Below, piece by piece: positions 9,049-35,925 of a DNA stretch of 49,150 bases. The notes below the pieces were generated by a model. It was not told the DNA's origin and ran no database searches. It was given only the letters and a program-made list of their open reading frames with translations. The position numbers and the translations under genes were made by a program. Position 1 is the stretch's first letter. Each line of letters starts with the position of its first letter. Source of the stretch: Rubrivivax sp. (GTDB lineage Bacteria; Pseudomonadota; Gammaproteobacteria; Burkholderiales; Burkholderiaceae_C); contig JAIXTY010000284.1 in the NCBI GenBank assembly GCA_027483705.1, forward strand, positions 1 through 49,150, in the 5' to 3' direction.

Positions 9049-9076
9049 AGTGTATACAGTTGCGCATACACGTCAA
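9049..9076 (-). promoter_or_regulatory. Candidate uraH promoter
   Basis: Read on the minus strand, TTGACG (9076-9071) and TACACT (9054-9049) form a -35/-10 pair with a 16-base spacer. The spacer is almost fully occupied by the inverted repeat at 9050-9071, so a bound regulator would block RNA polymerase. Confidence 0.5.
9050..9071. promoter_or_regulatory. Candidate GntR operator between uraH and its regulator
   Basis: Inverted repeat with arms GTGTAT (9050-9055) and ATACAC (9066-9071) separated by 10 bases. The left arm is part of a perfect 8-base palindrome TGTATACA (9051-9058). A GTATAC core is typical of FCD-type GntR sites and recurs in the palindrome before the atzF operon. The divergent GntR gene starts 12 bases further on. 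Confidence 0.6.
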
Positions 9077-9082
9077 CGCCTC

Positions 9083-9868: not shown

Positions 9869-9879
9869 ACCCGCCTGCC

Positions 9880-15053: not shown

Positions 15054-15084
15054 GACAGCGGCGATGAGGCCCTGGGCGACGGGA

Positions 15085-16534: not shown

Positions 16535-16607
16535 GCTTGCCCGTGAGCCTGCCCATATTCGCCACACCCGCCACCCCTTCATGGCCCACTCCCTGGAAGC
16601 CACTCCG

Positions 16608-17420: not shown

Positions 17421-17454
17421 CGGAGTCAAGAGGGAAGGGCAGGGGCAGAACACC

Positions 17455-18225: not shown

Positions 18226-18235
18226 CACCCTGGCG

Positions 18236-19640: not shown

Positions 19641-19658
19641 TTGGCACGGTTGATGCGT
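19641..19658 (+). promoter_or_regulatory. Sigma-54 (-24/-12) promoter candidate for the atzF operon
   Basis: TTGGCACGGTTGATGCGT matches the RpoN consensus TGGCACG-N4-TTGC closely. The invariant GG (19643-19644) and GC (19655-19656) are separated by exactly 10 bases; the only deviation in the core is ATGC for TTGC. The expected transcription start is around 19667, about 27 bases before the atzF ATG. This implies control by RpoN and an activator such as NtrC, fitting a nitrogen-scavenging operon. I did not find a clear activator site upstream. Confidence 0.65.
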
Positions 19659-19665
19659 GTTCCGA

Positions 19666-19677
19666 CTGGTATACCAG
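19666..19677. promoter_or_regulatory. Perfect 12-base palindrome, candidate GntR operator
   Basis: CTGGTATACCAG is a perfect palindrome centred on GTATAC, the core also present at 9051-9058. It covers the start site predicted from the sigma-54 element and lies 17 bases before the atzF ATG, so a bound repressor would block transcription. Two GntR/FCD regulators are encoded in the window (9083 and 35230); the one at the end of this operon is the first candidate. Confidence 0.6.
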
Positions 19678-19693
19678 AAGGTGCACCTTTTCG

Positions 19694-21553
19694 ATGCCAC
19701 GCGATCCGTCGTCCCTCCCGCGCCCGCCCGGGCCGCTCACCCTCAGCGACTGGCGGCAGGCCGTCCGTGGCGGTGCGTCGGTGTCGGCGCTGGTGCACGC
19801 GCGGGTGGCGCAGGCCGTGGCCGGGCCGGCGGGCACGCCTGACGCCGCCTGGATCCTGTCGCCGCAGGCGCCCGCGATGCAGGCCCACATCGCCACGCGC
19901 CTGGCCGAGCTCGAGGCCCTGGCCGCCGCCACGCCCGACCGCGCGGCCCTGCTTGCGCAGCACCCGCTCTTCGGCGTGCCGTTTGCCGTCAAGGACAACA
20001 TCGACGTCGCCGGCCTGCCCACCACCGCCGCCTGCCCCGCCTTCGCGCACGAGGCCACGGCCAGCGCCACCGTGGTGCAGCGGCTGCTGGCCGCCGGCGC
20101 GGTGCTGATCGGCAAGACCAACCTCGACCAGTTCGCCACCGGCCTGGTGGGCACGCGTTCGCCCTATGGCCAGCCCACGTCCACCTGGTCGGCCGATCAT
20201 GTGAGCGGTGGCTCCAGCTCGGGCTCGGCCGTGGTGGTGTCGCGCGGCGCCGTGCCGTTTGCGCTGGGCACCGACACCGCCGGCAGCGGTCGCGTGCCGG
20301 CCGGCTTCAACCACGTCGTCGGCCTGAAGCCCACGCCGGGGCGCGTGAGCACGGCGGGCGTGCTGCCGGCCTGCCGCAGCCTCGACTGCGTCTCGATCTT
20401 CGCGCTCACGGCCGACGACGCGGCCACGGTGCTGTCGGTCATCGAAGGCGCCGACGAGGCCGACGACTACAGCCGCTTCGCGCCGGGCATCGCCGGCTGG
20501 AACCACGCGCTGCGCATCGGCGTGCCGACCTCGCCACTGCTCGATGCCGAGCAAGGCGGCCCCGCCGCCTGGGCTGCCGCCGAGGCGCTGGCGCGCGAGA
20601 TGGGTGCCACGCTCGTGCCCATCGACTTCGAGCCGCTGCACGCCGTGGCGCGGCTGCTGTACGACGGCCCCTGGGTGGCCGAGCGCCACGCCGTCGTGCA
20701 GACGCTGATGGACACCCAGCCCGAGGCGCTGGACGCCACCGTGGCCGCCGTCATCGCCCAGGCCCGCGGCTTCAGTGCCACCGACACCTTCCGCGCGATG
20801 TACCAGCTCAAGGCCGCGCAGGCCGAGGCCGCGGCGCTGTGGCAGCGGGTGGACCTGCTGATGGTGCCCACCGCGCCGCGCCACCCCACGCGCGCCGACC
20901 TGGCCGCCGAGCCCGTGGCTGCCAATGCCGCGCTGGGCGCCTACACCAACTTCGTCAACTTCCTCGGCTGGAGCGCGCTGGCGATGCCCGCCGCCGTCAC
21001 GACCGCCGGGCTGCCCTTCGGCGTCACCTTCATCGGCCCGGCCGATGCCGACACGGCGCTCGCACGCCTGGGCGCACGCTGGCAGGCCGCGGCCGCCCAG
21101 CCGCTCGGCGCGACGGGCGCGGCATACGTGCCGCCGGCCGAGCCGCTGCCGCAGCCGGCCACCGAGCCGATGCTCGACGTGGCCGTGGTGGGCGCGCACC
21201 TCGAGGGCCTGCCGCTGAACGGCCAGCTGCTCGAACGCGGCGCGCAGCTGCGCGAGCGCACCACCACCGCGGCCGCCTATCGCCTGTACGCGCTGCCCGG
21301 CACCACGCCGCGCAAGCCCGGCCTGCAGCGCGTGGCGCAGGGTGGTGTGGCGGTGGCCGTGGAGGTGTGGGCCATGCCGCAGCGGCATCTCGGCAGCTTC
21401 CTCGCGCTGATCCCGCCGCCACTGGGCCTGGGCTCCATCGAGCTGGCCGACGGCCGCCACGTGCACGGCTTCCTCTGCGAAGCCCACGCGCTGGCCGGCG
21501 CAACCGACATCAGCCACCACGGCGGCTGGCGCGCCTATCTCGCTTCGCTCTGA
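19694..21553 (+). CDS. atzF: Allophanate hydrolase
   Basis: A 619-residue amidase-signature enzyme with the C-terminal allophanate-hydrolase domain. The Ser-cisSer-Lys triad is K100 (FAVKDN), S174 (SGGSSSGS) and S198 (DTAGSGR), which matches K91/S165/S189 of the Pseudomonas ADP enzyme at a constant offset of 9. The C-terminal part (about 490-619, starting DVAVVGAHLEGLPLNGQLLERG) fits the second domain that completes conversion of allophanate to CO2 and two ammonia. There is no urea carboxylase in the window, so allophanate must come from another source. It is the first gene of the operon. Confidence 0.96.
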   Translation: MPRDPSSLPRPPGPLTLSDWRQAVRGGASVSALVHARVAQAVAGPAGTPDAAWILSPQAPAMQAHIATRLAELEALAAATPDRAALLAQHPLFGVPFAVKDNIDVAGLPTTAACPAFAHEATASATVVQRLLAAGAVLIGKTNLDQFATGLVGTRSPYGQPTSTWSADHVSGGSSSGSAVVVSRGAVPFALGTDTAGSGRVPAGFNHVVGLKPTPGRVSTAGVLPACRSLDCVSIFALTADDAATVLSVIEGADEADDYSRFAPGIAGWNHALRIGVPTSPLLDAEQGGPAAWAAAEALAREMGATLVPIDFEPLHAVARLLYDGPWVAERHAVVQTLMDTQPEALDATVAAVIAQARGFSATDTFRAMYQLKAAQAEAAALWQRVDLLMVPTAPRHPTRADLAAEPVAANAALGAYTNFVNFLGWSALAMPAAVTTAGLPFGVTFIGPADADTALARLGARWQAAAAQPLGATGAAYVPPAEPLPQPATEPMLDVAVVGAHLEGLPLNGQLLERGAQLRERTTTAAAYRLYALPGTTPRKPGLQRVAQGGVAVAVEVWAMPQRHLGSFLALIPPPLGLGSIELADGRHVHGFLCEAHALAGATDISHHGGWRAYLASL

Positions 21554-21591
21554 TCCACCCGTCTTGAACCCACCCCTCGCAGGAGACCCAC

Positions 21592-23202
21592 ATGGACCGT
21601 CGTGACTTCACCCTGGCCTCCTCGCTCGCGCCCTTTGCGCTGGGCGCGCTGCCGCTGGCCGCGCAGGCCCAGGCACGGCCGAAGGACGTGCTGGTCGTGG
21701 CCAACGAGTTCGGCCCCAACTCGCTGGACATCCAGACCATCGGCGCCAACCGCCCGGCCTACGGCGTGAGCTGGATCTGCTACGACCGGCTGATGACCTA
21801 CGGCAAGAAGAAGCTGCCCGACGGCCGCGTCATCTACGACAAGAGCAAGCTCGAGCCCGAGCTCGCCGAGAGCTGGCAGATCGCGCCCGACGGCAATTCG
21901 GTCACCTTCAAGCTGCGCAAGAACGCGAAGTTCCACGACGGCACGCCGGTCACCGCCAAGGACGTGAAGTGGAGCTTCGACCGCGCGGTCAGCGTGGGCG
22001 GCTTCGCCACCTTCCAGATGGGCGCGGGCTCGCTGGAGAAGCCCGAGCAGTTCATCGTCGTCGACGACCACACCTTCCGCATCAACTTCCTGCGCCGCGA
22101 CAAGCTGACGATGAACAACATCGCCGTGCCGGTGCCCTGTGTCTTCAACAGCGAGCTGGTGAAGAAGAACGCCACGCCGCAGGACCCCTGGGGCCTGGCC
22201 TGGACGCGCAACAACGTGGCCGGCGGCGGTGCCTACAAGGTCGAGGCCTTCCGGCCCGGGCAGGAGATCGTCTACGTCCGCTACGACGACTGGAAGAGCG
22301 GCCCGCTGCCGAAGCTGCGCCGCATCGTGCAGCGCGAGGTGCCCAACGCCGGCAACCGCCGCGCGCTGCTGCTCAAGGGCGACATCGACATGACCTACGA
22401 CATGCCGCCCAAGGACTTCAGCGAGATGGCCAAGGAGGCGGGCAACGTCAAGGTCGCGACGATGCCGATCGAGAACGCAATGCTCTACGTGGGCATGAAC
22501 GTCACCAAGCCGCCGTTCGACAACGTCAAGGTGCGGCAGGCGGTGGCCTTTGCGCTGCCCTACGACAAGATCCACGAGACGGCGCTGTACGGCCGCGGCA
22601 GCAAGCTCTACGGCGCCGCCAGCAACCAGGTCAAAACGACGGCCTGGCCGCAGCCCACCGGCTACAAGACCGACATCGCGCGCGCCAAGGCGCTGATGGC
22701 CGAGGCCGGTGCGGCCGCCGGCTTCGAGACGACGCTGAGCCTGGACCTCGGCGGTGCCACGGTGGGCGAGCCGGCGGCCATCCTGATCCAGGAGTCGCTG
22801 GCGCAGATCGGCATCAAGGTGCAGATCAACAAGATCCCCGGCGCCACCTGGCGCGCGGCGCTGCTGAAGAAGGACATGCCGCTGATCCTCAACCGCTTCG
22901 GCGGCTGGCTCGACTTCCCGGAGTACTTCTTCTACTGGTGCTACCACGGCCAGAACGCGGTGTTCAACACCATGAGCTACCAGAACCCGAAGCTCGACCG
23001 CGTGATCACCAACGCGCGCTTCGCCGAGAGCAAGCCCATCTACGACGGCATGGTGCGCGACATGATCCAGATCGCGTACGACGAAGTCCCGCGCATCCCG
23101 CTGTTCCAGCCCAGCCAGGACGTGGCGATGCAGAAGTACGTGCAGGGCTACGTCTACTGGTTCCACCTGCAGCCGGACTACCGGCAACTCTCCAAGGCCT
23201 GA
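21592..23202 (+). CDS. ABC transporter substrate-binding protein, family 5 (peptide/nickel type)
   Basis: A 536-residue DppA/OppA-fold binding protein with a Tat-like leader (MDRRDFTLASSLAPFALG) and cleavage near AQAQA. Family motifs are LEPELAESWQIAPDGNSVTFKLRKNAKFHDGTPVTAKDVKWSFDRA in several short conserved blocks. AGGAG precedes the ATG at good spacing. Its matching permeases and ATPases are encoded about 8 kb downstream (31389-35233) in the same operon. The ligand is unknown; members of this family also import opines, nickel complexes and small amides. Confidence 0.93.
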   Translation: MDRRDFTLASSLAPFALGALPLAAQAQARPKDVLVVANEFGPNSLDIQTIGANRPAYGVSWICYDRLMTYGKKKLPDGRVIYDKSKLEPELAESWQIAPDGNSVTFKLRKNAKFHDGTPVTAKDVKWSFDRAVSVGGFATFQMGAGSLEKPEQFIVVDDHTFRINFLRRDKLTMNNIAVPVPCVFNSELVKKNATPQDPWGLAWTRNNVAGGGAYKVEAFRPGQEIVYVRYDDWKSGPLPKLRRIVQREVPNAGNRRALLLKGDIDMTYDMPPKDFSEMAKEAGNVKVATMPIENAMLYVGMNVTKPPFDNVKVRQAVAFALPYDKIHETALYGRGSKLYGAASNQVKTTAWPQPTGYKTDIARAKALMAEAGAAAGFETTLSLDLGGATVGEPAAILIQESLAQIGIKVQINKIPGATWRAALLKKDMPLILNRFGGWLDFPEYFFYWCYHGQNAVFNTMSYQNPKLDRVITNARFAESKPIYDGMVRDMIQIAYDEVPRIPLFQPSQDVAMQKYVQGYVYWFHLQPDYRQLSKA

Positions 23203-23205
23203 GCC

Positions 23206-23421
23206 ATGGCGGCGCCGAACGACGATGTGCGTGCCGCCGCGGTGCGGGCCGCCGCCGCGCAGCTGGGCCTGGCGATCACGGCCGAGCAGATGCCGGGCGT
23301 GCTGCGCTACACCGGGCTGGCCGCGATGATGGCCGAGCAGGTGATGGGCCTGCCGCTCGGGCCCGCCGACGAGCCGGCCACGGTGTTCGTGCCCGTGGTG
23401 CCGCGCGGAGACGGCTCGTGA
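23206..23421 (+). CDS. atzG: AtzG/HpxX-like small amidase partner (DUF4089)
   Basis: A 71-residue protein of the DUF4089 type, the GatC-like partner of AtzE-family amidases. The core is AAAQLGLAITAEQMPGVLRYTGLAAMMAEQVMGLPL in two helices, followed by a proline-rich tail (DEPATVFVPV) like the AtzG segment that lines the active-site cleft. It starts 3 bases after the binding-protein stop, and its own stop overlaps the amidase GTG start (GTGA). In Pseudomonas ADP, AtzG is needed for a soluble, active AtzE complex; HpxX plays the equivalent part in Klebsiella. Confidence 0.85.
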   Translation: MAAPNDDVRAAAVRAAAAQLGLAITAEQMPGVLRYTGLAAMMAEQVMGLPLGPADEPATVFVPVVPRGDGS

Positions 23422-24821
23422 CGGCGCCCGCTGCGCCCACCGCTGCCACGCTGGCCGGCCAGGTGCGCGAGGGCACCACGCGCGCGGTCGACGCCGTGCA
23501 GGCCGCGCTCGACCGCATCCAGGCTAACGAGCCGCGTGTCAACGCCTTCACCGCCGTGCTGGCCGAGCGCGCGCTCAAGCGCGCCGCGCACATCGACCAG
23601 CACGAGCGCCGCGCGCGCATGCCGCTCGCCGGCGTGCCCTTTGCGGTGAAGAACCTGTTCGACGTGGCCGGCCTGCCGACGCTCGCGGGCAGCAAGATCG
23701 AAGCCACGGCCGCGCCGGCCGCGCGCGACGCCGTGCTGGTGCGCCGGCTCGAGACCGCCGGCGCGGTGCTGGTGGGCGCGCTCAACATGGACGAGTACGC
23801 CTACGGCTTCACGACCGAGAACACGCACTACGGCCCCACGCGCAACCCGCACGACACCACGCGCATCAGCGGCGGCAGCTCTGGCGGCAGCGCCGCGGCG
23901 GTGGCCGCAGGCCAGGTGCCGCTGACGCTGGGCTCCGACACCAACGGCTCCATCCGCGTGCCCGCGTCGCTGTGCGGCACCTTCGGCCTCAAGCCCACGT
24001 TCGGCCGCCTGCCACGCACCGGCAGCTACCCCTTCGTGGCGAGCCTCGACCACCTGGGCCCGTTCGCGCGCTCGGTGATGGATCTGGCCCTGGGCTACGA
24101 CGCCATGCAAGGCCCCGATGACGCCGACCCGGCCTGCGCGCAACGCGCCATTGAGCCCGTGGCGCCGCTCGTGGCGCAGGGCGTGGGTGGCTTGCGCATC
24201 GGCGTGCTCGGCGGCTGGTTCCGCGAGATGGCGCTGCCCGAGGCGCTGGCCGCGGTGGACGCCGTGGCGCAGGCGCTGGGCGTGACGCGCCTGGTGGAGT
24301 GGCCTGAGGTGGCGCGTGCGCGCGCCGCGGCCTTTCTCGTGACGGCCGCCGAAGGGGCCACGCTTCACCTGAACGACCTGCGCACGCGCGCGGCCGACTT
24401 CGACCCGATGACGCGCGAGCGTTTCCTGGCCAACGCGCTGATCCCCGCCGCGTGGGTGGTGCAGAGCCAGCGCGTGCGCCACTGGTTCGCGCGGCGCGTG
24501 GCGCGCAGTTTCGAGACGGTGGATGTCGTCATCGCCCCGGCCACACCCTGCGTCGCACCGGCCATCGGCACCGAGTGGCTGGAGATCGGCGGCCAGCGCC
24601 TGCCGGCGCGCGCCAGCATGGGCTTGCTCACGCAGCCGGTGTCGGCCATCGGCCTGCCGGTGGCCACCGTGCCGCTGTGGGGGCTGAGCGCCTCGTCGCC
24701 GCACATGCCCATCGGCGTGCAGCTGATCGCCGCGCCCTGGCGCGAGGACCACGCGCTGCGCGTGGCCGCGCACCTCGAACAACTCGGGCTCGTGCACGCG
24801 CCGGTGGCGCGGCTGAACTGA
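23418..24821 (+). CDS. atzE: AtzE/HpxY-family amidase
   Basis: A 467-residue amidase-signature enzyme that starts at a GTG overlapping the previous stop. The triad is K78 ([11 protein letters not shown]), S154 (SGGSSGGS) and S178 (DTNGSIR). The closest family I know is AtzE (1-carboxybiuret hydrolase) and its homologue HpxY of the oxalurate pathway, both always next to a DUF4089 protein as here. In the cyanurate pathway AtzE/AtzG removes ammonia from carboxybiuret to give 1,3-dicarboxyurea. The true substrate here is uncertain because no atzD is nearby. Confidence 0.9.
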
Positions 24822-24832
24822 AGGCCACACCC

Positions 24833-25219
24833 ATGGACATCAACCTGCCCGCCGTGCACGCCGAACTCAGCGCCGCGTTTGCGCGCTACGAGGACGCGCT
24901 GGTGCACAACAAGGTCGAGGTGCTCGACGAGCTGTTCTGGACCAGCCCGCACACCGTGCGCTACGGCGTGGCCGAGAACCTGGTCGGCATCGAGGCCATC
25001 CGTGCCTTCCGCGCCGCCCGGCCATCCGTGGGCCTGGCGCGCACGCTGCAGAACACCGTGATCACCACCTTCGGCGCCGACTTCGGCACCGCGATGACCG
25101 AGTTCCGCCGCGAGGGCGGCACCAAGCTCGGCCGCCAGAGCCAGACCTGGTGCCGGCTCGACGGACGCTGGGTCGTGGTGGCCGCGCACGTGAGCCTGAT
25201 CGATCTCCCCCACCCATGA
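24833..25219 (+). CDS. atzH: AtzH/HpxZ-like SnoaL-fold protein (DUF3225)
   Basis: A 128-residue cystatin-like/SnoaL-fold protein matching the HpxZ/DUF3225 family: [20 protein letters not shown] near the N-terminus, a central [21 protein letters not shown] and C-terminal [21 protein letters not shown]. To my recollection a DUF3225 protein, AtzH, was shown in Pseudomonas ADP to convert 1,3-dicarboxyurea to allophanate, bridging AtzE and AtzF; HpxZ is linked to oxalurate use. Both fit this position directly after the AtzG/AtzE pair. Confidence 0.88.
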
Positions 25220-25239
25220 ACACGCCAGGAGCGAGGACC

Positions 25240-26361
25240 ATGCAAGACCATTCCCTGAATCGCCGCCACGTCATCACCGCCGCCGGCGCGCTGCTGGCCG
25301 CCGGTGCGCTGCCCTCGGCGCGCGCGCAGGCGCCGCTCACCGTGGGCGTCATCTACGTCGGCCCCAAGGGCGACTTCGGCTATAACCAGGCGCAGGCCCA
25401 GGCCGCCGCGGCGCTGAAGAAGATGCCGGGGCTGAAGGTCGTCGAGGAAGAGAGCGTCCCCGAGACCGTGGCTGTGCAGAAGACGATGGAAGCCATGATC
25501 CGGCAGGACAAGGCCGGCCTCATCTTCCCCACCAGCTTCGGCTACTTCGACCCGCACATGCTGGCGATGGCGGCCAAGTACCCGAAGGTGCGCTTCGCCC
25601 ATTGCGGCGGCCTGTGGACGAGCGGCAAGCACCCGGCCAACACCGGCAGCTACTTCGGCTACATCGACGAGTGCCAGTACCTGGCCGGCGTGGTGGCCGC
25701 GCACGCCAGCAAGGGCAAGAAGCTGGGCTTCATCGCCGCCAAGCCCATTCCGCAGGTGCTGCGCAACATCAACGCCTTCACGATGGGTGCGCGCAGCATC
25801 GATCCGACGATCACGACGCGCGTCATCTTCACCGGCGAGTGGAGCATGCCCGTGAAGGAGGCCGAGGCCAGCACCAGCCTCATCGACCAGGGCGTGGACG
25901 TGCTCACCTGCCACGTCGACAGCCCGAAGGTCATCATGGAGACGGCCGAGAAGCGCGGCGTGTTCTGCAGCGGCTACCACGCCAGCCAGGCCGCGCTGGC
26001 GCCCAAGGGCTACCTGACGGGCGCCGAGTGGGACTGGAGCACGCCCTACGGCCTGCTGGTGAAGGCGGCGCAGACCGGTGCGGCGCACCCCAACTTCCTG
26101 CGCGGCGGCCTGAAGGAAGGCTACGTGAAGATGAGCGCCTACGGCCCGGCCGTGAGCGCCGCGGCCAAGACCAGGGCCGACACCATCCGCGCCGAGATGA
26201 TGAAGGGCAGCTTCGTCATCTTTGCCGGCGGCAAGGTGGGGCTGAAGGACAACAAGGGCGCCACGGTCATCGCCGCGGGCCAGTCGCTGGCCCAGACCGC
26301 GCCCGAGCTCGAGAAGATGGGCTACCTCGTCGAAGGCGTGATCGGCTCCATTCCAGGCTGA
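25240..26361 (+). CDS. BMP-family ABC transporter substrate-binding protein
   Basis: A 373-residue periplasmic binding protein of the Bmp/Med (PnrA-like, nucleoside-type) family. The leader carries a twin arginine (LNRRHVITAAGALLAAG) and cleavage near ARAQA. Features include VGVIYVGPKGDFGYNQAQAQ, a KYPKVRFAHCGG block and SSFGYIDECQYLAG-like sequence. AGGAG at 25227-25231 supports the ATG at 25240 over the in-frame ATG at 25216 that overlaps the previous stop. The family usually binds purine nucleosides or related compounds, and two permeases and a double ATPase follow. Confidence 0.92.
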   Translation: MQDHSLNRRHVITAAGALLAAGALPSARAQAPLTVGVIYVGPKGDFGYNQAQAQAAAALKKMPGLKVVEEESVPETVAVQKTMEAMIRQDKAGLIFPTSFGYFDPHMLAMAAKYPKVRFAHCGGLWTSGKHPANTGSYFGYIDECQYLAGVVAAHASKGKKLGFIAAKPIPQVLRNINAFTMGARSIDPTITTRVIFTGEWSMPVKEAEASTSLIDQGVDVLTCHVDSPKVIMETAEKRGVFCSGYHASQAALAPKGYLTGAEWDWSTPYGLLVKAAQTGAAHPNFLRGGLKEGYVKMSAYGPAVSAAAKTRADTIRAEMMKGSFVIFAGGKVGLKDNKGATVIAAGQSLAQTAPELEKMGYLVEGVIGSIPG

Positions 26362-26365
26362 TGCC

Positions 26366-27457
26366 GTGAACACCGCCGTGCTCCCGGCCGCCCCGGCCGC
26401 GCCATCGGCCACGCGCGAGCGTGCGCTGGCGCTGGCCGACGCGATGCTGCCGGCGCTGGCGGCGCTGGCCATCGCGGTGCTGGGCTTCTCGGCTGCGGTG
26501 GCGGTGGCGGGGCACGACCCGGTGGAGGTGTGGGGCCTCATCTTCAGCGGCGGCTTCGGCGACAGCTTCGCGTGGCAGAACACGCTGCAGCGCGCCGCGC
26601 CGCTGATCCTGACGGGGCTGGCCGTGGCGCTGCCGGCGCAAGCCGGCCGCGTGATCATCGGCAGCGAAGGTGCGCTGGTACTGGGCGGGCTGGCGGCAGC
26701 CGCCGCGGGCACCGCGCTGGCCACGCAGGGCGCGTGGCTGGCCTGGCCGCTGATGGCGCTGGCCGCGGCGCTGGCGGGTGGCGCGTGGATCGCGCTGGCA
26801 GGCTGGCTGCGCGAGTGGCGCGAGGTCAACGAGACGATCTCCAGCCTGCTGCTGAGCTTCATCGCCATCGCCCTGTTCAACCAGATGGTGGAGACGGTGC
26901 TGCGCGACCCCGCCAGCCTGAACAAGCCCAGCACGGCGCCGTTGCCTGAGGCGCTGCTGCTGCCGCCGCTGCCGGGGCTGGACGTGCACTGGGGCCTGGC
27001 GCTCGGCCTCGCGCTGGCGCTGCTGGCCTGGGGCGTGATGCGCTACACCCCGCTGGGCTTGGCGCTGCGCGTGGCCGGCGGCAACCCGCGCGCCGCTTTG
27101 GGCGTGGGCCTGCGCGTGCCGGTGCTCACCATCGGGGCCTGCGCAGCGGGCGGCGCCTGCGCCGGGCTGGCCGGCGCGGTGGAGGTGGCCGCGGTGCACG
27201 GTGCGGCCAATGCCAGCCTGATGGCGGGTTATGGCTACACCGGCATCCTCATCGCGTTCGCGGCGCGCTTCTCGCCGGCGGGCGTGGTGCCGGTGGCCAT
27301 CCTGGTGGGCGGTATTGCCGCCAGCGGCAGCCTGCTGCAGCGGCGGCTCGGCCTGCCGGAAGCCAGCGTGCAGGTGCTGCTGGGCATCGCCTTCGTGGCG
27401 CTGATCGGCTGCGAGACGCTGCGCGGGCGGCTCGTCGCGCGCTACGGGGGGCGCTGA
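26366..27457 (+). CDS. ABC permease 1 of the BMP-type importer
   Basis: A 363-residue membrane protein with about ten hydrophobic segments of the BPD_transp_2 (branched-chain amino acid/ribose/nucleoside) type. Motifs such as LPAQAGRVIIGSEGALVLGG and INETISSLLLSFIAI-like VNETISSLLLSFIAIALFNQ are characteristic of nucleoside-type permeases. It begins at a GTG 4 bases after the binding-protein stop and pairs with the shorter permease that follows 3 bases after its end. Confidence 0.93.
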   Translation: MNTAVLPAAPAAPSATRERALALADAMLPALAALAIAVLGFSAAVAVAGHDPVEVWGLIFSGGFGDSFAWQNTLQRAAPLILTGLAVALPAQAGRVIIGSEGALVLGGLAAAAAGTALATQGAWLAWPLMALAAALAGGAWIALAGWLREWREVNETISSLLLSFIAIALFNQMVETVLRDPASLNKPSTAPLPEALLLPPLPGLDVHWGLALGLALALLAWGVMRYTPLGLALRVAGGNPRAALGVGLRVPVLTIGACAAGGACAGLAGAVEVAAVHGAANASLMAGYGYTGILIAFAARFSPAGVVPVAILVGGIAASGSLLQRRLGLPEASVQVLLGIAFVALIGCETLRGRLVARYGGR

Positions 27458-27460
27458 GCC

Positions 27461-28384
27461 ATGGACGCCAACGACCTGGGCTGGTGGGGCGTGCCGCTGG
27501 CCATCATCGGTGGCGCCATTCGCGTCGGTACGCCGCTGCTGTGGGTGAGCCTGGGCGAGACGGTCACGGAGAAGGCCGGCCGCATCAACCTGGGCCTGGA
27601 AGGCACGCTCCTGATGGGCGCGATGGCCGCCTACTGCACCGCGCTCGTCACCGGCAACCCCTGGCTGGGCGTGCTGGCTGCCGCCGGCGTGGGCCTGCTG
27701 CTGGGGCTGCTGCACGGCTTGCTGTGTTCGCTGAACCGCGTCAACGACACGGCGATGGGCATTGCGCTGATGCTGGCCGGCTCGGGCCTGGCTTTCTGGC
27801 TCGGCAAGCCGCTGATCCAGCCCTCGGCACCCGACCTGCCGGCCATCGAGCTGGGCGGTTTCACCGATCAGCCGGCGATCCGCGCGGCTCTGGCCATCAG
27901 CCCGCTCTTCGTGCTGGGCCTGGTGCTGGCCTTCGTCGTGCACGCGGCACTGGGCCACACGCGCTTCGGCCTGCGGCTGCGCGTGGTGGGCGACAGCGAA
28001 CCGGCCGCCCGCGCCTTCGGCCTGCAGCCGGTGCTGTACCGCGTGGCGGCCACGGCCTTTGGCGGTGCCTGCGCGGGCGTGGGCGGGGCCTCGCTGTCGC
28101 TCGTGTACCCGGGCGCGTGGAGCGAGGCGCTCAGCAGCGGCCAGGGCGTAATGGCCGTGGCGCTGGTGATCTTTGCGCGCTGGGATCCGCGGCGCTGCAT
28201 CTGGGCGGCGCTGCTGTTCGGCGGCGCCAGCGCCATCAGCCCGGCCTTGCAGGCGCTGGGCTACACGGAGGGCTACTACCTCTTCGCCGCGCTGCCGTAC
28301 GTGCTGACGCTGGCGCTGCTGGTGGGCCTGGGCAAGCCGGGGCCGAAACATGGCGCGCCGGGTGAACTCTCGTTGAACCGGTGA
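27461..28384 (+). CDS. ABC permease 2 of the BMP-type importer
   Basis: A 307-residue BPD_transp_2 permease with eight or more membrane segments. The segment [28 protein letters not shown] is typical of the smaller nucleoside-type permease (YufQ/NupC-like), and [21 protein letters not shown] marks the cytoplasmic loop. It forms the heterodimeric channel with the 363-residue permease. An isochorismatase-like hydrolase gene, not the ATPase, comes next. Confidence 0.93.
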
Positions 28385-28391
28385 TGGAAAC

Positions 28392-29093
28392 GTGACGCAG
28401 ATGGGATTCGCCTCCGTCAACGCCGACCCGTACGCCTGGCCTTTCGACGGCGCCTGGCGTGCCGCCGACACGGCGCTGGTGATCATCGACATGCAGACCG
28501 ACTTCTGCGGCCACGGTGGCTATGTCGACCGCATGGGCTACGACATCAGCGCCACGCGCGCGCCCATCGGCCCCATCGGCGCGCTGCTGGAACGCGCCCG
28601 CGCGGTCGGCATGCACGTGATCCACACGCGAGAAGGCCACCGGCCCGATCTGTCGGACCTGCCGGCCAACAAGCGCTGGCGCTCGCAGCAGATCGGCACG
28701 GGCGGCGTGGGCATCGGCGACCCCGGCCCCTGCGGCCGCATCCTCGTGCGTGGCGAGCCCGGCTGGCAGATCATCGACGAGCTTGCACCCGCCGCGGGCG
28801 AGGTGGTGATCGACAAGCCCGGCAAGGGCTCGTTCTGCGCCACCGACCTCGATCTCATCTTGCGCCAACGCGGCATTCGCAACATCGCACTCGCGGGGAT
28901 CACGACCGACGTGTGCGTGCACACGACGATGCGCGAGGCCAACGATCGCGGCTTCGAGTGCCTGATCGTCAGTGACGGCACCGGTGCCACCGACCGCGGC
29001 AACCACGACGCGGCGCTGAAGATGGTGACCATGCAGGGCGGGGTGTTCGGGGCCGTGGCGTCGTCGGCGGCCATCCTGGAGGCCCTGTGCTGA
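28392..29093 (+). CDS. Isochorismatase-like amidohydrolase, probable biuret or triuret hydrolase
   Basis: A 233-residue cysteine hydrolase. The expected Asp-Lys-Cys triad is D33 (IIDMQTDF), K142 (DKPGKGSF) and C175 ([10 protein letters not shown]). The sequence [45 protein letters not shown] and [11 protein letters not shown] is, from memory, very close to biuret hydrolase BiuH of Rhizobium, whose triad is D36/K142/C175; triuret hydrolase TrtA is a near relative. Biuret hydrolysis yields allophanate, the AtzF substrate. It starts at GTG 28392 (ATG 28401 is possible), and its stop overlaps the ATPase start. Confidence 0.85.
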
Positions 29094-30715
29094 TCCCGCC
29101 GCAGCGCGAGCCCGAAGGCGCCGCGGGCGTGCAGATGCTGGGCTTCTCGAAGCGCTTCGGCAGCCTGCAGGCGCTGGCCGATGTGTCGATGACGGTCGAG
29201 CCCGGTAGCTTCCATGCGCTGCTGGGCGAAAACGGCGCCGGCAAGAGCACGCTGGTGAAGAGCCTGATCGGCTTCTACCGCGCCGACACCGGCACCGTGC
29301 TGGTGGACGGCCGCGAGCGCGACATCGGCAGCCCGCGCGACGCCGGCGCCGCCGGCATCGGCATGATCTTCCAGCACTTCACCGTCGTGCCCGGCATGAC
29401 GGTGGCCGAGAACCTGGCGCTGGCCGGGCGCGAGCTGCCGGCGTTCATCCGCTGGGGCCGCGAGCGCGAGCAGCTGCGCGCCTTCATGCAGACCGCGCCG
29501 TTCCCGCTGCCGCTCGAGAAACCCGTGGCGCAGCTGGCCGCCGGCGAGAAGCAGAAGCTCGAGATCCTGAAGGCCCTGTACACCCGCCGCCGCTTCCTGG
29601 TGCTCGACGAGCCGACCTCGGTGCTCACGCCGCAGGAGGCCGACGAGGTGCTGGGCCAGATGAAGGCGCTGTGCCGGGCCGGGCAGCTGACGGTGCTGAT
29701 CATCACGCACAAGTTCCGCGAGGTCTTCGGCTACTGCGACGAGGTGACGGTGCTGCGCCGCGGCCGACTGGCCGGTGCCGCGAAGGTGGCCGAGACGCAG
29801 CGCGACGAACTCGCGGCCTGGATGATGGGCGCCGAGCTTGCCACGGCGGTGCCGCCCGAGGCCGATGCCGCCTCCACGGCTGCGACGGAGGAGCCCGCCG
29901 TCACCGTGATGGCACCGACCGCGGCCCCGCGCCTGGCGGTGCGCGGCCTGCGCGTGGCCAGCGAGCAGGGTCCGCCGGCCATCGACGGGCTCGACTTCGA
30001 CGTGCTGCCCGGCGAAATCGTCGGCATTGCCGGTGTCTCAGGCAACGGCCAGCGCGAGCTGATGGCCGCGCTCACCGGCACGCTGCCCATCGCTGCCGGC
30101 ACGCTGGCCGTCGACGGCCGGCCCTACCGGCCCACGCGGATGGCGATGACGGCCGAGGGCGTGCGCAGCCTGCCCGAGGAGCCCTTGCACAACGCCTGTG
30201 TCGGCGCGCTCAGCGTGGCCGACAACCTGGCGCTGCGGAACTTCGACCGCGCGCCGCTCTCGCGTGGGGGCCTGCTGTCGGGCCGCGCCATCCGCGCGCA
30301 GGCGCTCGACGCGATTGCCGCCTTCAAGGTCAAGACGCCGGGGCCGGGCGCGGCCATCCGCAACCTCAGCGGCGGCAACGTGCAGCGCGCCGTGCTGGCG
30401 CGCGAACTCGGCGCCTTCAACGACACGCCGCCGCGCCTGCTGCTGGTGGCCAATCCCTGCTTCGGCCTCGACTTCCAGGCCGTGGCCGAGATCCACGCCC
30501 GCCTGCGCGCCGCGCGCGACGCCGGCTGCGGCGTGCTGCTGATCAGCGAAGACCTCGACGAGATCCTGGCGCTGGCTTCGCGCGTGCTGGTGCTGAGCCA
30601 CGGCCATGTGGCGCTGCAGTGCGCGGCGGCCGGGGCGGACATCGGCGCCATTGGCCGGGCGATGGCGGGTGACAGCGCCGGCGACACCGCCGACGCCCTG
30701 AAGGAAGCCGCATGA
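29087..30715 (+). CDS. ABC ATPase with two nucleotide-binding domains, BMP-type importer
   Basis: A 542-residue fusion of two ABC domains. The N-terminal half has Walker [10 protein letters not shown] (48-56), a variant signature ([11 protein letters not shown]) and Walker [10 protein letters not shown]. The C-terminal half has the degenerate P-loop GVSGNGQRE and the signature [15 protein letters not shown], as in sugar/nucleoside importer ATPases. It begins at a GTG inside the end of the hydrolase gene and completes the Bmp system (binding protein plus two permeases). Confidence 0.94.
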
Positions 30716-31392
30716 CGACGCTGACCGTGGCCGCACGCCCCTACGACTACAGCTTCGACCCCGCGCACACGGCGGTGGTGCTGATCGACATGCAACGCGA
30801 CTTCCTCGAGCCCGGCGGCTTTGGCGCGCTGCTGGGCAACGACGTCGCACCGCTGCGCCGTATCGTGCCCGCCTGCCAGCGGCTGCTGGCGCTGGCGCGC
30901 GCGCACGGCATGACCGTCATCCACACCCAGGAGGCGCATGACCCGCTGCTGGCCGACTGCCCGCCCGCCAAGAAGGCCCGCGGCCACCTTGCCTGCGGCA
31001 TCGGCGACCCCGGTCCCCTGGGCCGCGTGCTCGTGGCCGGCGAGCCCGGCGCCGGCTTCGTGCCGGAGCTGACGCCCGAAGCGGGTGACATCGTCATCCG
31101 CAAGCCCGGCAAGGGCGCGTTCTACGCCACCGCGCTGGACGGCATCCTCAAGAACCGCGGCATCACGCACCTGCTGGTGGGCGGCGTCACCACCGAGGTG
31201 TGCGTGCAGACCACGCTGCGCGAGGCCAACGACCGCGGCTACGAGTGCCTGCTGGTGGCCGACTGCGCGGCGAGCTACTTCCCGCAGTTCCACGACGCCG
31301 TCGTCGAGATGGTGGTGGCGCAGGGCGGCATCGTCGGCTGGGCCGCGCCGCTGGCGGCGCTGGAGCAGGCCTTGGTGGGGCCCGCCGCATGA
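30712..31392 (+). CDS. Second isochorismatase-like amidohydrolase
   Basis: A 226-residue cysteine hydrolase of the same superfamily as the 28392 gene. The triad is expected at D26 (LIDMQRDF), K131 or K134 (IRKPGKGAF) and C164 ([22 protein letters not shown]). It keeps the [17 protein letters not shown] block of the biuret/triuret hydrolase group but lacks the GYVD and [14 protein letters not shown] regions, so its substrate probably differs. Both ends overlap neighbours by 4 bases. Likely a ureide or carbamoyl-type amide hydrolase. Confidence 0.85.
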
Positions 31393-32405
31393 TGCTCAAG
31401 CTGATCGGCCAGCGGCTGCTGGGCGCGCTGCCCAACATCGCCGGCGTCATCGTCATCACCTTCATCCTCACGCGCGCGCTGCCGGGCGATCCGGCGGCCT
31501 ACTTCGCGGGCGGCTCGGCCACGCAGGAGGCGGTGGAGCAGGTGCGCCAGCAACTGGGCCTCAACAAGCCGCTGCTGGAGCAGTTCTTCAGCTACCTGGG
31601 CGCGCTGTCGCGCGGCGACCTGGGCCTGTCGCTCACCACCGGCCAGCCGGTGCTGCAGGAGCTGCTGTCGCGGCTGCCGGCCTCGCTGGAGCTGGTGCTG
31701 ATCGCGCTGGTGGTGGCCTGCGCGGTGGCGCTGCCGCTGGGCGTGCTGGCGGCCACACGGCCGGGCTCGTGGATCGACCAGCTGTGCCGCATCATCACCA
31801 CGGCGGGTGTCTCGCTGCCCACCTTCTTCACCGGCTTGCTGCTGGCCTACGTTTTCTACTTCCTGCTCGGCTGGGCGCCCAGCCCGCTGGGCCGTCTCGA
31901 CCCGCTGTACTCCCCGCCGCCCACGGTGACGGGCCTGTACCTCGTCGATGCCCTGCTGGCCGGCGACCGCGCGCTCGCGTGGGCGGTGCTGAAGCAGCTC
32001 ATCCTGCCGGTGGCGACGATGGCCCTCTTCGTGCTGGCGCCCATCGCGCGCATGACGCGGGCCTCGATGCTGTCGGTGCTGTCGGCCGACTTCGTGCGCA
32101 CGGCGCGCGCCGCGGGGCTGTCGCGCGGCACGGTGCTCGTGACCTATGCGCTGCGCAACGCGCTGCTGCCGGTGGTCACCACGCTGGGCATGGTGTTCGG
32201 CTTCATGCTGGGCTCCAGCGTCATCGTCGAGAAGGTCTTCGCGTGGCCGGGGCTGGGTGCCTATGCCATCGACGCACTCACGGCCAGCGACTACGCCCCG
32301 GTGCAGGGCTTCGTGCTGGTGATGGGCATCCTCTTCGTGCTGCTGAACCTGCTGGTGGACGTGCTGTACGTGCTGATCGACCCGCGCGTGGAGGTGAGCG
32401 CATGA
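31389..32405 (+). CDS. ABC permease, DppB type
   Basis: A 338-residue membrane protein of the peptide/nickel permease family 1: N-terminal [35 protein letters not shown], the long periplasmic loop after it and the EAA motif [32 protein letters not shown]. It probably works with the family 5 binding protein at 21592. A second ATG (31392) would drop one residue. The stop overlaps the DppC-type gene. Confidence 0.94.
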
Positions 32406-33262
32406 GCGCCGCCGGAACCACGACGACGCTGGGCCACGCGCGGCACGTGCTCAGCGAGAACCCCATCACGCTGCTCGCCGCGATGATGTTCACGCTGCTG
32501 GTCGTGCTGGCTCTCATCGGCCCCTACATCGTGCCCTACGACCCGCTGGCCAGCAACGCGGCGGTGGCGCTGCAGCCGCCGTCGGCCCAGCACTGGTTCG
32601 GCACCGACGCGCTGGGCCGCGACATCTTCTCGCGTGTGATCGTGGCCACGCGGCTGGATCTCGGCATCGCTGTCAGCGCGGTGGCCGCCAGCTTCGTCAT
32701 CGGCATGCCGCTGGGCCTGGCGGCGGGCTTCTTCGGCGGCTGGTGGGACCGCATCATCTCGCGGCTGGCCGACACCATCATGGCCTTCCCCCTCTTCGTG
32801 CTGGCCATGGGCATCGTCGCGGCCCTGGGCAACACCGTGGGCAACATCGTGCTGGCCACGGTGGTGATCAACCTGCCGTTCTACATCCGCGTGGCGCGGG
32901 CCGAGGCCAACGTGCGGCGCAACGCCGGCTGGGTGGAGGCGGCGCGCCTGTCGGGCAACAGCGACTGGCGCATCCTGGCCGTGCACCTGTTCCCGAACGC
33001 GTTGCCGCCGGCCATGGTGCAGCTGAGCCTGAACATGGGCTGGGCCATCCTCAATGCCGCGGGGCTGAGCTTCATCGGCCTGGGCGTGCGCCCGCCCGAT
33101 CCCGAGTGGGGCATCCTGGTCGCCGAGGGCGCGCAGTTCATCGTCAGCGGCGAGTGGTGGGTGGCGCTGTTCCCGGGCGCCATGCTGATGCTGGCGGTGT
33201 TCACCTTCAACCTGCTGGGCGACGCGCTGCGCGACATCTTCGACCCGCGGAGGCGGACATGA
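32402..33262 (+). CDS. ABC permease, DppC type
   Basis: A 286-residue membrane protein. It has the N-terminal DppC/OppC segment PYIVPYDPLASN and HWFGTDALGRDIFSRVIVATRLDL, the EAA motif VRRNAGWVEAARLSGNSDWRILAVHLFPNALPP, and the C-terminal GLSFIGLGVRPPDPEWG, all family markers. Start and stop overlap neighbouring genes by 4 bases. It forms the channel with the DppB-type permease. Confidence 0.95.
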   Translation: MSAAGTTTTLGHARHVLSENPITLLAAMMFTLLVVLALIGPYIVPYDPLASNAAVALQPPSAQHWFGTDALGRDIFSRVIVATRLDLGIAVSAVAASFVIGMPLGLAAGFFGGWWDRIISRLADTIMAFPLFVLAMGIVAALGNTVGNIVLATVVINLPFYIRVARAEANVRRNAGWVEAARLSGNSDWRILAVHLFPNALPPAMVQLSLNMGWAILNAAGLSFIGLGVRPPDPEWGILVAEGAQFIVSGEWWVALFPGAMLMLAVFTFNLLGDALRDIFDPRRRT

Positions 33263-34290
33263 GCGCCAACGGCCAGCCGCCCCTGCTGGAGGTGCGCGAC
33301 TTCGGCCTGGAGTTCCGCACGCGCAACGGCACGGTGAGCGCTCTGCAGGGCATCGACCTCACGCTGAGGAAGGGCGAGATCGTCGGCCTCGTCGGCGAGA
33401 GCGGCTCGGGCAAGAGCGTGCTGAGCTACGCGCTGCTGGGCATCAGCGACCGCGCCGCCCGCGTGACCGGCGGCACCGCGATGTTCGGCGGCCTCGACCT
33501 GCTGAAGGCCGACGAAGCCACGCTGGCCGATCTGCGCGGCCGCGAGATCGGCATGATCTTCCAGAGCCCGCGCACGGCGCTGAACCCCATCCGCCCGGTG
33601 GGCCGGCAGATCGAGGACGTGCTGCGCCGGCATGCCGTGGCCCGGGGCGCCGACCTCGGCCAGAGCCTCAAGCAGCGCGCGGTGCAGGCGCTGCGCGAGG
33701 TGGCCATCGCCGACCCCGAGCGCCGCGTGAAGGCCTACCCCTTCGAGCTGAGCGGTGGCATGTGCCAGCGCGTGATGATCGCGCTGGCGCTGGCCTGCCG
33801 GCCGAGCCTGCTGGTGGCCGACGAGCCCACCACGGGCCTGGACGTCACCACGCAGGCCGGCGTGATGGACCTGATCACCTCGCTGGCGCGCGAGCGCGAG
33901 ATGGCCACGCTGTTCATCACGCACGACCTGGCGCTGGCTGCCGACTATTGCGACCGCATCGTCGTCATGCACGCCGGCCACGCGGTGGAGGCGGCGCCGG
34001 CAAGGACGCTGTTCGCCGCCCCGCGGCACCCCTACACGCAGCGGCTCATCAGCAGCACGCCGGGCAGCGGCGGCCACATCGACGCACTGCAGCCCGTGCC
34101 CGGCAACCTGCCCGACCTGCGCCGCGGCGACCTGCCGGCCTGCCGCTTTGCCGAGCGCTGCCCGCGCGCCACCGAGCGCTGCCGCACCGAGACGCCGCGC
34201 CTGGACCCGCTGGCCGCGCACGCGGTGGCCTGCTGGTTCCCGGTCGATGCGACGACGGCGCCCGCGCCGACGGAGGCCGCCCATGGCTGA
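33259..34290 (+). CDS. ABC ATPase, DppD type
   Basis: A 343-residue ABC ATPase with Walker A GESGSGKS, signature LSGGMCQRV, Walker B LLVADEPTTGLD, H-loop FITHDLALAADY, and the C-terminal oligopeptide-type extension with HPYTQRLISSTPG and the cysteine cluster CRFAERCPRATERC, which in DppD homologues often binds an iron-sulfur cluster. It pairs with the DppF-type ATPase that overlaps its end by 8 bases. Confidence 0.95.
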   Translation: MSANGQPPLLEVRDFGLEFRTRNGTVSALQGIDLTLRKGEIVGLVGESGSGKSVLSYALLGISDRAARVTGGTAMFGGLDLLKADEATLADLRGREIGMIFQSPRTALNPIRPVGRQIEDVLRRHAVARGADLGQSLKQRAVQALREVAIADPERRVKAYPFELSGGMCQRVMIALALACRPSLLVADEPTTGLDVTTQAGVMDLITSLAREREMATLFITHDLALAADYCDRIVVMHAGHAVEAAPARTLFAAPRHPYTQRLISSTPGSGGHIDALQPVPGNLPDLRRGDLPACRFAERCPRATERCRTETPRLDPLAAHAVACWFPVDATTAPAPTEAAHG

Positions 34291-35233
34291 GCGCCCGCTT
34301 CTGAGCATCGAACGGCTGCACAAGCGCTATCCCGTGCAGGGCGCCCGCGGCTCGCTGCTGCACGCGGTGGACGACGTGTCCTTTGCCATCGCGCCCGGCG
34401 AGAGCGTGGGCCTGGTGGGCGAGTCGGGCTGCGGCAAGAGCACGCTGGTGCGCCTCTTGGCACGGCTGCACGATGCCAGCGACGGCCGCATCGTGTTCGA
34501 CGGCGACGACCTGGCCGCCACGCCGGCGCTGAAGTTCGCGCGCGACCCGCGCCGGGCGCAGATCCAGATGGTGTTCCAGGACCCCACCGACAGCCTGAAC
34601 CCGCGCTTCACGGCGCGCGAGACCATCGCCGAGCCGCTGGCGCTGCTGAGCGGCCTGCGCGGTGCCGAGGCCGCGGCGCGGGTGGACGAGGTGGCCACGC
34701 AGGTGGGCCTGCCGCTGGAGCTGCTGCAGCGCTACCCGCACCAGCTGTCGGGCGGGCAGAAGGCGCGCGTGGGCATCGCGCGGGCGCTGGCGGTGAAGCC
34801 GCGCCTGCTGATCCTGGACGAGCCCACCGCGGCGCTGGATGTCTCGGTGCAGGCGGTGGTGCTGCAACTGCTGGCGCGGCTGCGGCGCGAGCTGGGCCTG
34901 AGCTGCCTCTTCGTGAGCCACGACCTCAACGTCGTGCGCCTGCTCACCGAGCAGGTGGCCGTGATGTACCTGGGCAAGCTGGTGGAGTTCGGCCCCAGCG
35001 AGCAGGTGTTCCGCGCGCCGCGCCACCCCTACACGCAGGCGCTGGTGTCGGCCATCCCGGGCCAGGGCCCGCGCATCCGGCTCAACGGCGAGCTGACGAG
35101 CCCCATCGACCCGCCCAAGGACGCCTGCCGCTTCCACGGCCGCTGCCCGCGCGGCGAAGACCGCTGCGGCCGCGAGGCCCCGCCGCAGGTGATGCGCGGC
35201 CCGCACATGGCGGCCTGCCACTTTGCGACATGA
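34283..35233 (+). CDS. ABC ATPase, DppF type
   Basis: A 316-residue ABC ATPase: Walker A GESGCGKST, Q-loop FQDPTDSLNPRF, signature LSGGQKARV, Walker B LLILDEPTAALDVSV, H-loop VSHDLNVVRLL, and the C-terminal HPYTQALVSAIPGQG with CRFHGRCPRGEDRC. It completes the second importer. Its stop overlaps the GntR start. Confidence 0.95.
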   Translation: MAERPLLSIERLHKRYPVQGARGSLLHAVDDVSFAIAPGESVGLVGESGCGKSTLVRLLARLHDASDGRIVFDGDDLAATPALKFARDPRRAQIQMVFQDPTDSLNPRFTARETIAEPLALLSGLRGAEAAARVDEVATQVGLPLELLQRYPHQLSGGQKARVGIARALAVKPRLLILDEPTAALDVSVQAVVLQLLARLRRELGLSCLFVSHDLNVVRLLTEQVAVMYLGKLVEFGPSEQVFRAPRHPYTQALVSAIPGQGPRIRLNGELTSPIDPPKDACRFHGRCPRGEDRCGREAPPQVMRGPHMAACHFAT

Positions 35234-35925
35234 TGGAGCGCATGGCCGAACCCGCCCCCCGTGTCGCCCTGGCCGAGCAGGCCTACATCCAGCTCAAGGC
35301 CGAGCTGCACGACTTTCTCTGGCTGCCCGGCGAGCGCGCCAGCGAGCTGGAGATTGCGCACCGCCTGGGCATGAGCCGCACGCCGGTGCGCGAGGCGCTG
35401 TTCCGCCTGCGCAACGAGGGCTTCCTGGAGGTCGAGGCCAAGACCGGCTGGACCGTCAAGCCCATCGACTTCGCGCGCATCGACCAGATCTATGACCTGC
35501 GCATCGTGCTGGAGACCGCGAGTCTGGCGCGCCTGGCCCAGATGAGCGAGCAGCCCCCCGAGCTGCAGGCGCTGAAGGACGTGTGGCTGGTGCCGGCGGC
35601 CGAGCGCCTGGGCGATGGCCGCGCGGTGGGCGAGCTCGACGAGCGCTTCCACGCGCAGCTGGTGGCGGCGGCCGGCAACGTGGAGATCAGCCGCGTGCAC
35701 CGCGAGGTGACGGAGCGCATCCGCATCGTGCGCCGGCTCGACTTCACGCGCGGCGACCGCATCGACGCCACGTATGCGGAGCACGCCAAGATCCTGCGCG
35801 CCGTCATCCAGCGCAAGACCGACGCGGCGCAGATGCTGCTCAAGAGCCACATCGAGCACAGCAAGCTCGAGGTGCGCAAGATCACGCTGCACGCGCTGCA
35901 GGAGGCGCGCTCCAGCCGCGCCTGA
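35230..35925 (+). CDS. GntR/FCD-family regulator at the end of the ureide operon
   Basis: A 231-residue regulator. The GntR winged helix occupies about residues 14-80 (ELEIAHRLGMSRTPVREALFRLRNEGFLEV), and the FCD domain follows, with helices carrying the metal/ligand residues in RFHAQLVAAAGNVEISRVHREVTERIRI and EHAKILRAVIQRK. It is the last gene of the operon started by atzF and is a candidate for binding the CTGGTATACCAG palindrome before atzF. The ATG at 35230 overlaps the DppF-type stop; ATGs at 35233 and 35242 are also in frame. Confidence 0.9.
   Translation: MMERMAEPAPRVALAEQAYIQLKAELHDFLWLPGERASELEIAHRLGMSRTPVREALFRLRNEGFLEVEAKTGWTVKPIDFARIDQIYDLRIVLETASLARLAQMSEQPPELQALKDVWLVPAAERLGDGRAVGELDERFHAQLVAAAGNVEISRVHREVTERIRIVRRLDFTRGDRIDATYAEHAKILRAVIQRKTDAAQMLLKSHIEHSKLEVRKITLHALQEARSSRA

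Follow-up and report, generated by a model that had tools for sequence, protein, structure and literature searches.

Urea fertiliser contains triuret and biuret as impurities. Several described gene clusters resemble an operon of Rubrivivax sp. that probably serves the use of both compounds; it lies in a stretch of 49,150 nucleotides (assembly GCA_027483705.1, the whole of contig JAIXTY010000284.1), hereafter called the window. The triuret pathway of Herbaspirillum sp. BH-1 (PMC7948467) has TrtA, BiuH and AtzF in one operon. The window operon encodes the same enzymes with the same diagnostic residues and, unlike that system, adds atzG-atzE-atzH and a second, Dpp-type importer; the available text of the Herbaspirillum paper mentions AtzEG solely for its part in the cyanuric-acid pathway. 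With the atzDGEHF operon of plasmid pADP-1 from Pseudomonas sp. ADP (PMC6219798) it shares the order atzG-E-H, AtzF, the reported sigma-54 control and a Bmp importer nearby, whereas it has TrtA in place of AtzD, an extra BiuH, a GntR instead of a LysR regulator and a second importer. Judged from their description, the atzF-ABC-atzGEH-ABC-amidase clusters (ABC, ATP-binding cassette importer) of Variovorax, Rhodoferax, Rhizobacter, Leptothrix and Methylibium (Fig 6C of PMC6219798) are very likely of the same type; in the accessible part of that source neither the amidases nor the function had been assigned, and a composite structure was not noted. The nitrifier trtA-biuH-atzF-bmpA-nupABC clusters (PMC12625717) resemble the part of the window operon that carries the Bmp importer; the accessible portions of that paper attribute the carboxybiuret step to TrtB or leave it open, and they name neither AtzEG nor a Dpp importer.

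Publications already cover the enzymes of the pathway and much of the gene layout. The statement of a first-pass annotation of this DNA that the combination is not a described system is therefore only partly right, as both the Burkholderiales clusters and the trtA/biuH/atzF operons had been reported. In the literature on triuret, biuret hydrolase, AtzE/G/H, carboxybiuret and trtB, as covered by titles or partial texts, we found no assignment of atzGEH to triuret operons. Nor did the literature searched describe the atzGEH-trtA linkage, the origin as a composite, the common control site or the changed Bmp pocket, all of which are set out below.

Open reading frames and family scans of the window reveal an operon of 16 open, co-oriented genes on the plus strand (19694-35925, GntR regulator included). 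The first-pass annotation had reported fifteen genes running in one direction, mostly with 4-base overlaps. All of these genes are present and closely packed, but the count is 16 and only six of the 15 joints overlap by 4 bases; one overlaps by 7 bases, one by 8, and the other seven are gaps of 3-38 bases. Its starting point, 19641, lies one base before a promoter-like element (19642), and the first gene begins at 19694. G264, a complete genome on a single contig, has the same order from atzF to dppB, and so do six of 80 named AtzE loci (atzG was undetected in one of them, L141); these 80 are the best of at least 562 and are biased to close relatives. A chance assembly is excluded because this gene order recurs and because the family scores of atzF, atzE, atzH and biuH are far over their cut-offs. 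We consider it probable that the operon is a composite one that scavenges nitrogen from triuret and biuret. In this scheme a six-gene cassette, bmp-nupB-nupC-biuH-nupA-trtA (25220-31392), would have been put between atzH and dppB of an operon atzF-sbp-atzGEH-dppBCDF-gntR with its own importer. As the cassette is placed inside the older operon, one promoter would serve both.

The two hydrolases of the cassette can be named from published diagnostic residues. The product of 28401-29093 passes the BiuH equivalog NF050097 (406 versus 370 bits), its nearest PDB entry is BiuH of Rhizobium (6azo, 368 bits), and it contains the BiuH residues Y, Y, S, D, T and V. The product of 30712-31392 fails the same model (248 bits) and ranks TrtA of Herbaspirillum (6xix, 299 bits) before Rhodococcus biuret hydrolase (6xjm, 230) and Rhizobium BiuH (6azo, 202). 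All 13 residues compared are of the TrtA type, including the catalytic D24, K129 and C162 together with F35, N41, A134, E160, Y187, Q202 and I205, which PMC7948467 gives, in its available text, as separating TrtA from BiuH. The general assignment to BiuH/TrtA-type amidohydrolases made in the first-pass annotation can thus be narrowed to one probable biuret hydrolase, BiuH, and one probable triuret hydrolase, TrtA. A BiuH/TrtA-type hydrolase was matched in 58 of 399 genomes of the order, from which 52 TrtA-like places were picked by hand; 50 of the fetched loci are TrtA by residues, and the two that lack them (L081 and L082) were left out of the counts. In the 50 loci the residues cleanly separate 52 TrtA from 24 BiuH proteins. 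The full set of 13 occurs in 50 of the 52 TrtA proteins; the remaining two deviate only at A134, as does one of the 24 BiuH proteins at the same position. The order biuH, ATPase, trtA holds in all 24 loci with BiuH.

Related hydrolase genes were also seen in other settings. An enterobacterial plasmid (CP110581.1) carries a hydrolase-ATPase-hydrolase-gntR block that resembles biuH-nupA-trtA. A total of 269 plasmid records match TrtA at an E value of 1e-50, including 121 from Rhizobium and 77 from Escherichia, with BiuH-type matches probably among them. In one genome of the same family (G171, contig C9, locus L048) an AtzD gene stands directly downstream of the biuH-trtA cluster, joining the triuret and cyanuric-acid routes.

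The genes at the front of the operon encode the second enzymatic branch. The first one, atzF (19694-21553), scores 737.5 bits against a cut-off of 511 in TIGR02713, has 4gyr as its best PDB match and contains both the amidase and the allophanate C-terminal domain, in agreement with its earlier naming as allophanate hydrolase. The atzG gene (23206-23421; PF13318, 46 versus 24 bits) adjoins atzE (23418-24821), whose product belongs to the AtzE subfamily (TIGR02715, 685.5 versus 425.75 bits), has the amidase residues Lys/Ser/Ser and is probably a carboxybiuret amidohydrolase. Its best PDB match, 6c62, is AtzE of pADP-1, as a comparison with the plasmid confirmed. The following gene (24833-25219) belongs to the AtzH/HpxZ family (PF11533, DUF3225, 191 bits; NF033625, 192 versus 135 bits) and keeps the catalytic Tyr and Arg of the AtzH site. 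An AtzD gene was not found in the source genome (4.8 Mb, 359 contigs, about 88% complete), although the pADP-1 positive control was detected, and the domain PF02682, carried by urea amidolyase, was not found either. The first-pass annotation had noted that no atzD and no urea carboxylase are visible, and both remarks hold; an identity with the cyanuric-acid operon atzDGEHF was rejected because atzD was not found in this 88% complete genome.

According to the available text of PMC7948467, the TrtA product carboxybiuret breaks down to biuret, half of it within about 20 minutes. In PMC6219798, as far as accessible, AtzEG is reported to deaminate carboxybiuret, and AtzH to be the probable enzyme for conversion of the product to allophanate; gene context gave little further evidence there for a specific function of AtzH in atzGEH clusters. 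From these data we infer the following substrates and fluxes. TrtA would convert triuret to carboxybiuret and ammonia. Carboxybiuret could then leave by two exits, namely through AtzEG to dicarboxyurea and on through AtzH to allophanate, or by spontaneous decarboxylation to biuret, which BiuH would convert to allophanate. AtzF would finally release ammonia and CO2 from allophanate, so that all four nitrogens would be recovered.

The uptake of the substrates may depend on the importer in the cassette. It consists of a Bmp-family binding protein (25240-26361; PF02608), two permeases resembling NupB (26366-27457) and NupC (27461-28384; both PF02653) and a NupA-like double ABC ATPase (29087-30715; PF00005 in two stretches). 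An alternative Bmp start at 25216 would give a 4-base overlap with atzH. The best PDB match of the Bmp protein is 6pi5, AtzT, a Bmp-like protein that binds guanine (PMC6834077, in its available text) through Y45, S97, F98, E165, W194, N218 and N220. The stacking pair Y45/W194 and S97 are retained in the cassette-type proteins; the window protein differs by E165Q, N218H and N220D, and a purine-binding protein of the AtzT type was rejected on this ground. The combination Q/H/D occurs in 58 of 59 cassette-type proteins, window included, against E/N/N in AtzT; these 58 rows are at least 63% identical, a few of them are one gene seen twice, and three come from stretches without a visible biuH or trtA. 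In three of the 58 rows F98 is replaced by Y. The exception, from an alphaproteobacterium (49% identical), reads T, H, D; among distant paralogues five (36% identical) read E, N, D and one (32%) reads E, H, D. Such a pocket would suit a flat ligand other than a purine, for example triuret or biuret, and we propose that this importer takes up flat ureides. The second importer would consist of a family 5 solute-binding protein (21592-23202; PF00496, 283 bits, no NCBIfam cut-off reached), the permeases DppB (31389-32405; PF00528, PF19300) and DppC (32402-33262; PF00528, PF12911) and the ATPases DppD (33259-34290) and DppF (34283-35233; both PF00005, PF08352).

Several comparisons speak for a link between atzE and triuret. 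Both atzE and atzH stand within the fetched stretch in 17 of the 50 trtA loci, and in six of the 50 trtA occurs with atzE but without BiuH in the stretch. In two of these genomes, G191 and G340 (each 99% complete), trtA is accompanied by atzE-atzH and a second hydrolase was not matched at E values up to 1e-30, so that AtzEG could be the sole enzymatic exit there. Among the 80 best AtzE loci, TrtA is found in 33, BiuH in 32, either of them in 37, AtzF in 55 and AtzH in 67. Along the AtzE tree, linkage with TrtA or BiuH switches at least 14 times. AtzE of pADP-1 groups with full support (100/100) with locus L163 and with the trtA-linked AtzE of G049, where atzE-atzH adjoin the biuH-trtA cassette on the opposite strand; G049 is of the same family as the window. 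The pADP-1 protein sits among rows many of which are trtA-linked, in a tree that had no proven HpxY row.

Seven cyanobacterial AtzE-like proteins, which are 57-59% identical, form one clade; AtzH, AtzF and TrtA were not found in these stretches at the thresholds used. The neighbours of four AtzE modules (10 genes of L148, L152, L170 and L171) included no common extra enzyme.

Across the genomes of the order, a BiuH/TrtA-type hydrolase occurs in 31 of the 47 with AtzE versus 27 of the 352 others. This hydrolase or an AtzD family protein, AtzD being the second known source of carboxybiuret, occurs in 38 of the 47 versus 31 of the 352; an AtzD family protein is present in 19 of the 47. Relatedness inflates these odds, which weighs against the proposed pathway, as do three further observations. 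In 27 of the 50 trtA loci neither atzE nor atzH is in the fetched stretch, some of which are ended by contig ends. A hydrolase of the BiuH/TrtA type is missing from 16 of the 47 AtzE genomes, and both this hydrolase and AtzD from nine, which implies one or more further roles or sources for AtzEG. Finally, atzH occurs near trtA without atzE in six of the 50 loci; this fits the role of a carboxybiuret decarboxylase instead. The AtzH-family protein could then be TrtB, triuret would be degraded only through biuret and BiuH, and AtzEG would act on another substrate imported by the Dpp system. The same solitary association is seen in Ideonella dechloratans, and five of the six solo AtzH proteins are on long branches or stems away from AtzH of pADP-1. 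The occurrence of AtzE modules in genomes without a TrtA-type hydrolase also favours this explanation, and so does PMC12625717, the abstract of which lists atzH with trtA and biuH where the accessible body names trtB. We regard it as unlikely, since the window AtzH is short-branched and groups with an AtzE-linked protein (L031), albeit in a tree in which 11 of 23 inner branches are open, and since trtA and atzE do occur without BiuH in the stretch, in two cases in genomes in which no second hydrolase was found.

The older half of the operon may alternatively belong to a route for cyanuric acid or a related ring amide, in which the Dpp-type importer takes up the ring compound and carboxybiuret is supplied by an AtzD whose gene lies at another place. 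The family 5 binding protein co-occurs with AtzE in 22 of 29 genomes, and an AtzD family gene is present in 17 of these 29 versus 8 of 370 others; in genome G169 atzD stands 237 bases before atzE. Ten of the 17 AtzD genomes, however, come from one genus (g22), and eight of these reach at most 253 bits against 430-515 for clear AtzD proteins. Together with the failure to find AtzD in the 88% complete Rubrivivax genome this makes a cyanuric-acid route doubtful, about as much so as the TrtB explanation. An oxalurate operon of the hpx type is far less probable. The NCBIfam label HpxZ of the AtzH-like gene and a purine breakdown block upstream would speak for it, but AtzH of pADP-1 bears the same label in its record, AtzF, BiuH and TrtA are present, and the window AtzE falls in the AtzE subfamily; the oxalurate reading was rejected on these grounds. 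Moreover, no gamma-glutamyltransferase is among the 20 genes scanned in 19694-40805; HpxW, which accompanies HpxXYZ in the hpx cluster, is gamma-glutamyltransferase-like. A ggt-atzGEH arrangement does appear in the available text of PMC6219798. The proposal of the first-pass annotation that the operon imports and degrades ureides can be retained for biuret and triuret, through carboxybiuret and allophanate; for oxalurate it is not supported.

The composite nature of the triuret-biuret operon is suggested by relatives that have only one of its parts. A stand-alone atzF-sbp-atzGEH-dppBCDF module without Bmp, BiuH or TrtA in the stretch is present in L084, L086, L088 and L092; atzG was undetected in L084, and gntR follows in all except L088, which ends within dppF. 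L148 contains the stand-alone module without atzF in the stretch, L102 a variant with atzH after dppF, and in Variovorax and its kin a NitT/Tau-type importer replaces the Dpp-type one. Stand-alone operon and biuH-trtA cassette are on separate contigs in G137 (L088 and L034) and are divergent neighbours in G240 (L096 and L036). The cassette is located between atzH and dppB in the window, G264, L117, L118, L120, L122, L127 and L141, and after gntR in L119 and L129. The nearest named relative among the 80 best AtzE loci is L117, a Rubrivivax bin with an AtzE 91% identical to that of the window, so that the host probably belongs to the Sphaerotilaceae. DNA identity between the two is 0.85 before the cassette (22901-25219), 0.70 within it and 0.89 after it (31393-34675), or 0.88, 0.73 and 0.89 without gap columns; identity begins to rise again towards the end of trtA, at about 31.1 kb. 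The core proteins are 81-94% and the cassette proteins 57-82% identical, with L117 running off within dppF. In the core-gene tree window and L117 are sisters with a support of 100, whereas in the cassette tree the window groups with L118, L031 and L120, and L117 with L127, L130, L131, L141 and L122. Forcing the two together in the cassette tree was rejected by the approximately unbiased test (p 4e-86), for a pair picked after the tree was seen.

From the identity drop and the conflicting trees it follows that the cassette was exchanged, or inserted more than once, between atzH and dppB. Insertion, rather than loss, is the likeliest first origin. The way in which the pair was chosen tells against this history, as does the fact that the six named loci with this joint are all metagenome bins, G264 being a complete single contig. 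The full 16-gene operon could also be ancestral, with relatives that lost the cassette, and the presence of two cassette lineages in the same joint would agree with this. Such a history is rather improbable, because window and L117 share their flanks but not the ancestry of the cassette, which loss alone cannot produce, and because cassettes also occur after gntR or, as in G137, elsewhere in the genome.

A putative control region precedes atzF. It contains a sigma-54-like -24/-12 element, TGGCACGGTTGATGC (19642-19656, plus strand), and, beginning ten bases after it, the palindrome TGGTATACCA (19667-19676, plus strand; core GTATAC), a candidate operator for the GntR/FCD regulator encoded by the last gene (35230-35925; PF00392, PF07729). 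Relatives have the first element at the same position ahead of atzF and also keep the palindrome. Taken by itself, the sigma-54 pattern matches 25 times in the window, no more than expected by chance (28), while TGGTATACCA has a single match there at up to one mismatch. A joint pattern of both elements, built after the relatives' sequences were seen, occurs at 29 places within a set of 163 sequences that total 2.9 Mb and include near copies; the same set, reversed, has no match. Within 300 bases downstream of these places atzF is found 22 times, bmp, the family 5 binding protein and atzE once each, and no listed gene in four cases. Among the 85 atzF genes that have 200 bases of sequence ahead of them, 23 show the strict pattern; its lack at the other 62 counts against the explanation proposed here. 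The sigma-54 element may mean nitrogen control, and under nitrogen limitation the sigma-54 polymerase would transcribe from the element at 19642 unless the GntR repressor occupies the GTATAC site. An Rfam scan of the window gave no match.

Further genes surround the operon. A uric-acid block (6338-13870) a few kb upstream encodes urate oxidase, allantoinase PuuE, a fused OHCU decarboxylase/allantoate amidohydrolase and a deacylase. Triuret has been suspected to arise from uric acid oxidation. At an E value of 1e-15, PuuE or the OHCU/allantoate fusion was found in one of 30 atzE stretches (L109) and in no stretch among the 50 confirmed for trtA, and the flanks of G264 gave no match to the block above 90 bits. 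All 12 genomes examined for urate oxidase have it, and one plasmid record does not. A general link between urate and the triuret operon is thus not shown, since the linkage does not recur in the fetched trtA stretches and all 12 genomes have urate oxidase. A solitary ureD gene (18732-19577), the sole one detected in the genome, precedes atzF by 116 bases; the urease alpha gene found is on contig C313, and L117 and L118 have ureD in the same position. A NitT/Tau-type importer (NMT1, ATPase, permease) and a deaminase occupy 14013-18724; homologues of these importer genes (40-57% identical) adjoin atzF-atzE-atzH in five loci of genus g22 (L085, L087, L099, L100 and L111). Genes for a PEP-CTERM-type ATPase and a GspB-like protein begin 42 bases downstream of gntR.

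The atzG-atzE-atzH branch is so far known from a pollutant pathway, with its native role left unassigned in print, and its linkage to trtA gives a direct test of this role and of the origin of the cyanuric-acid pathway. The in-place exchange of a whole importer-plus-enzymes cassette would be a clear case of modular operon assembly. As a wider and still tentative view, which we hold with somewhat less than even confidence, atzGEH may by origin belong to triuret catabolism. Carboxybiuret would then be a node with TrtA and AtzD as sources and AtzEG-AtzH and BiuH as exits, both exits being combined in the Rubrivivax operon. The corresponding branch on the atrazine plasmid may derive from such operons, the cassette may be exchanged as a whole at one fixed joint of the host operon, and the Bmp proteins with the Q/H/D pocket may be dedicated ureide importers.

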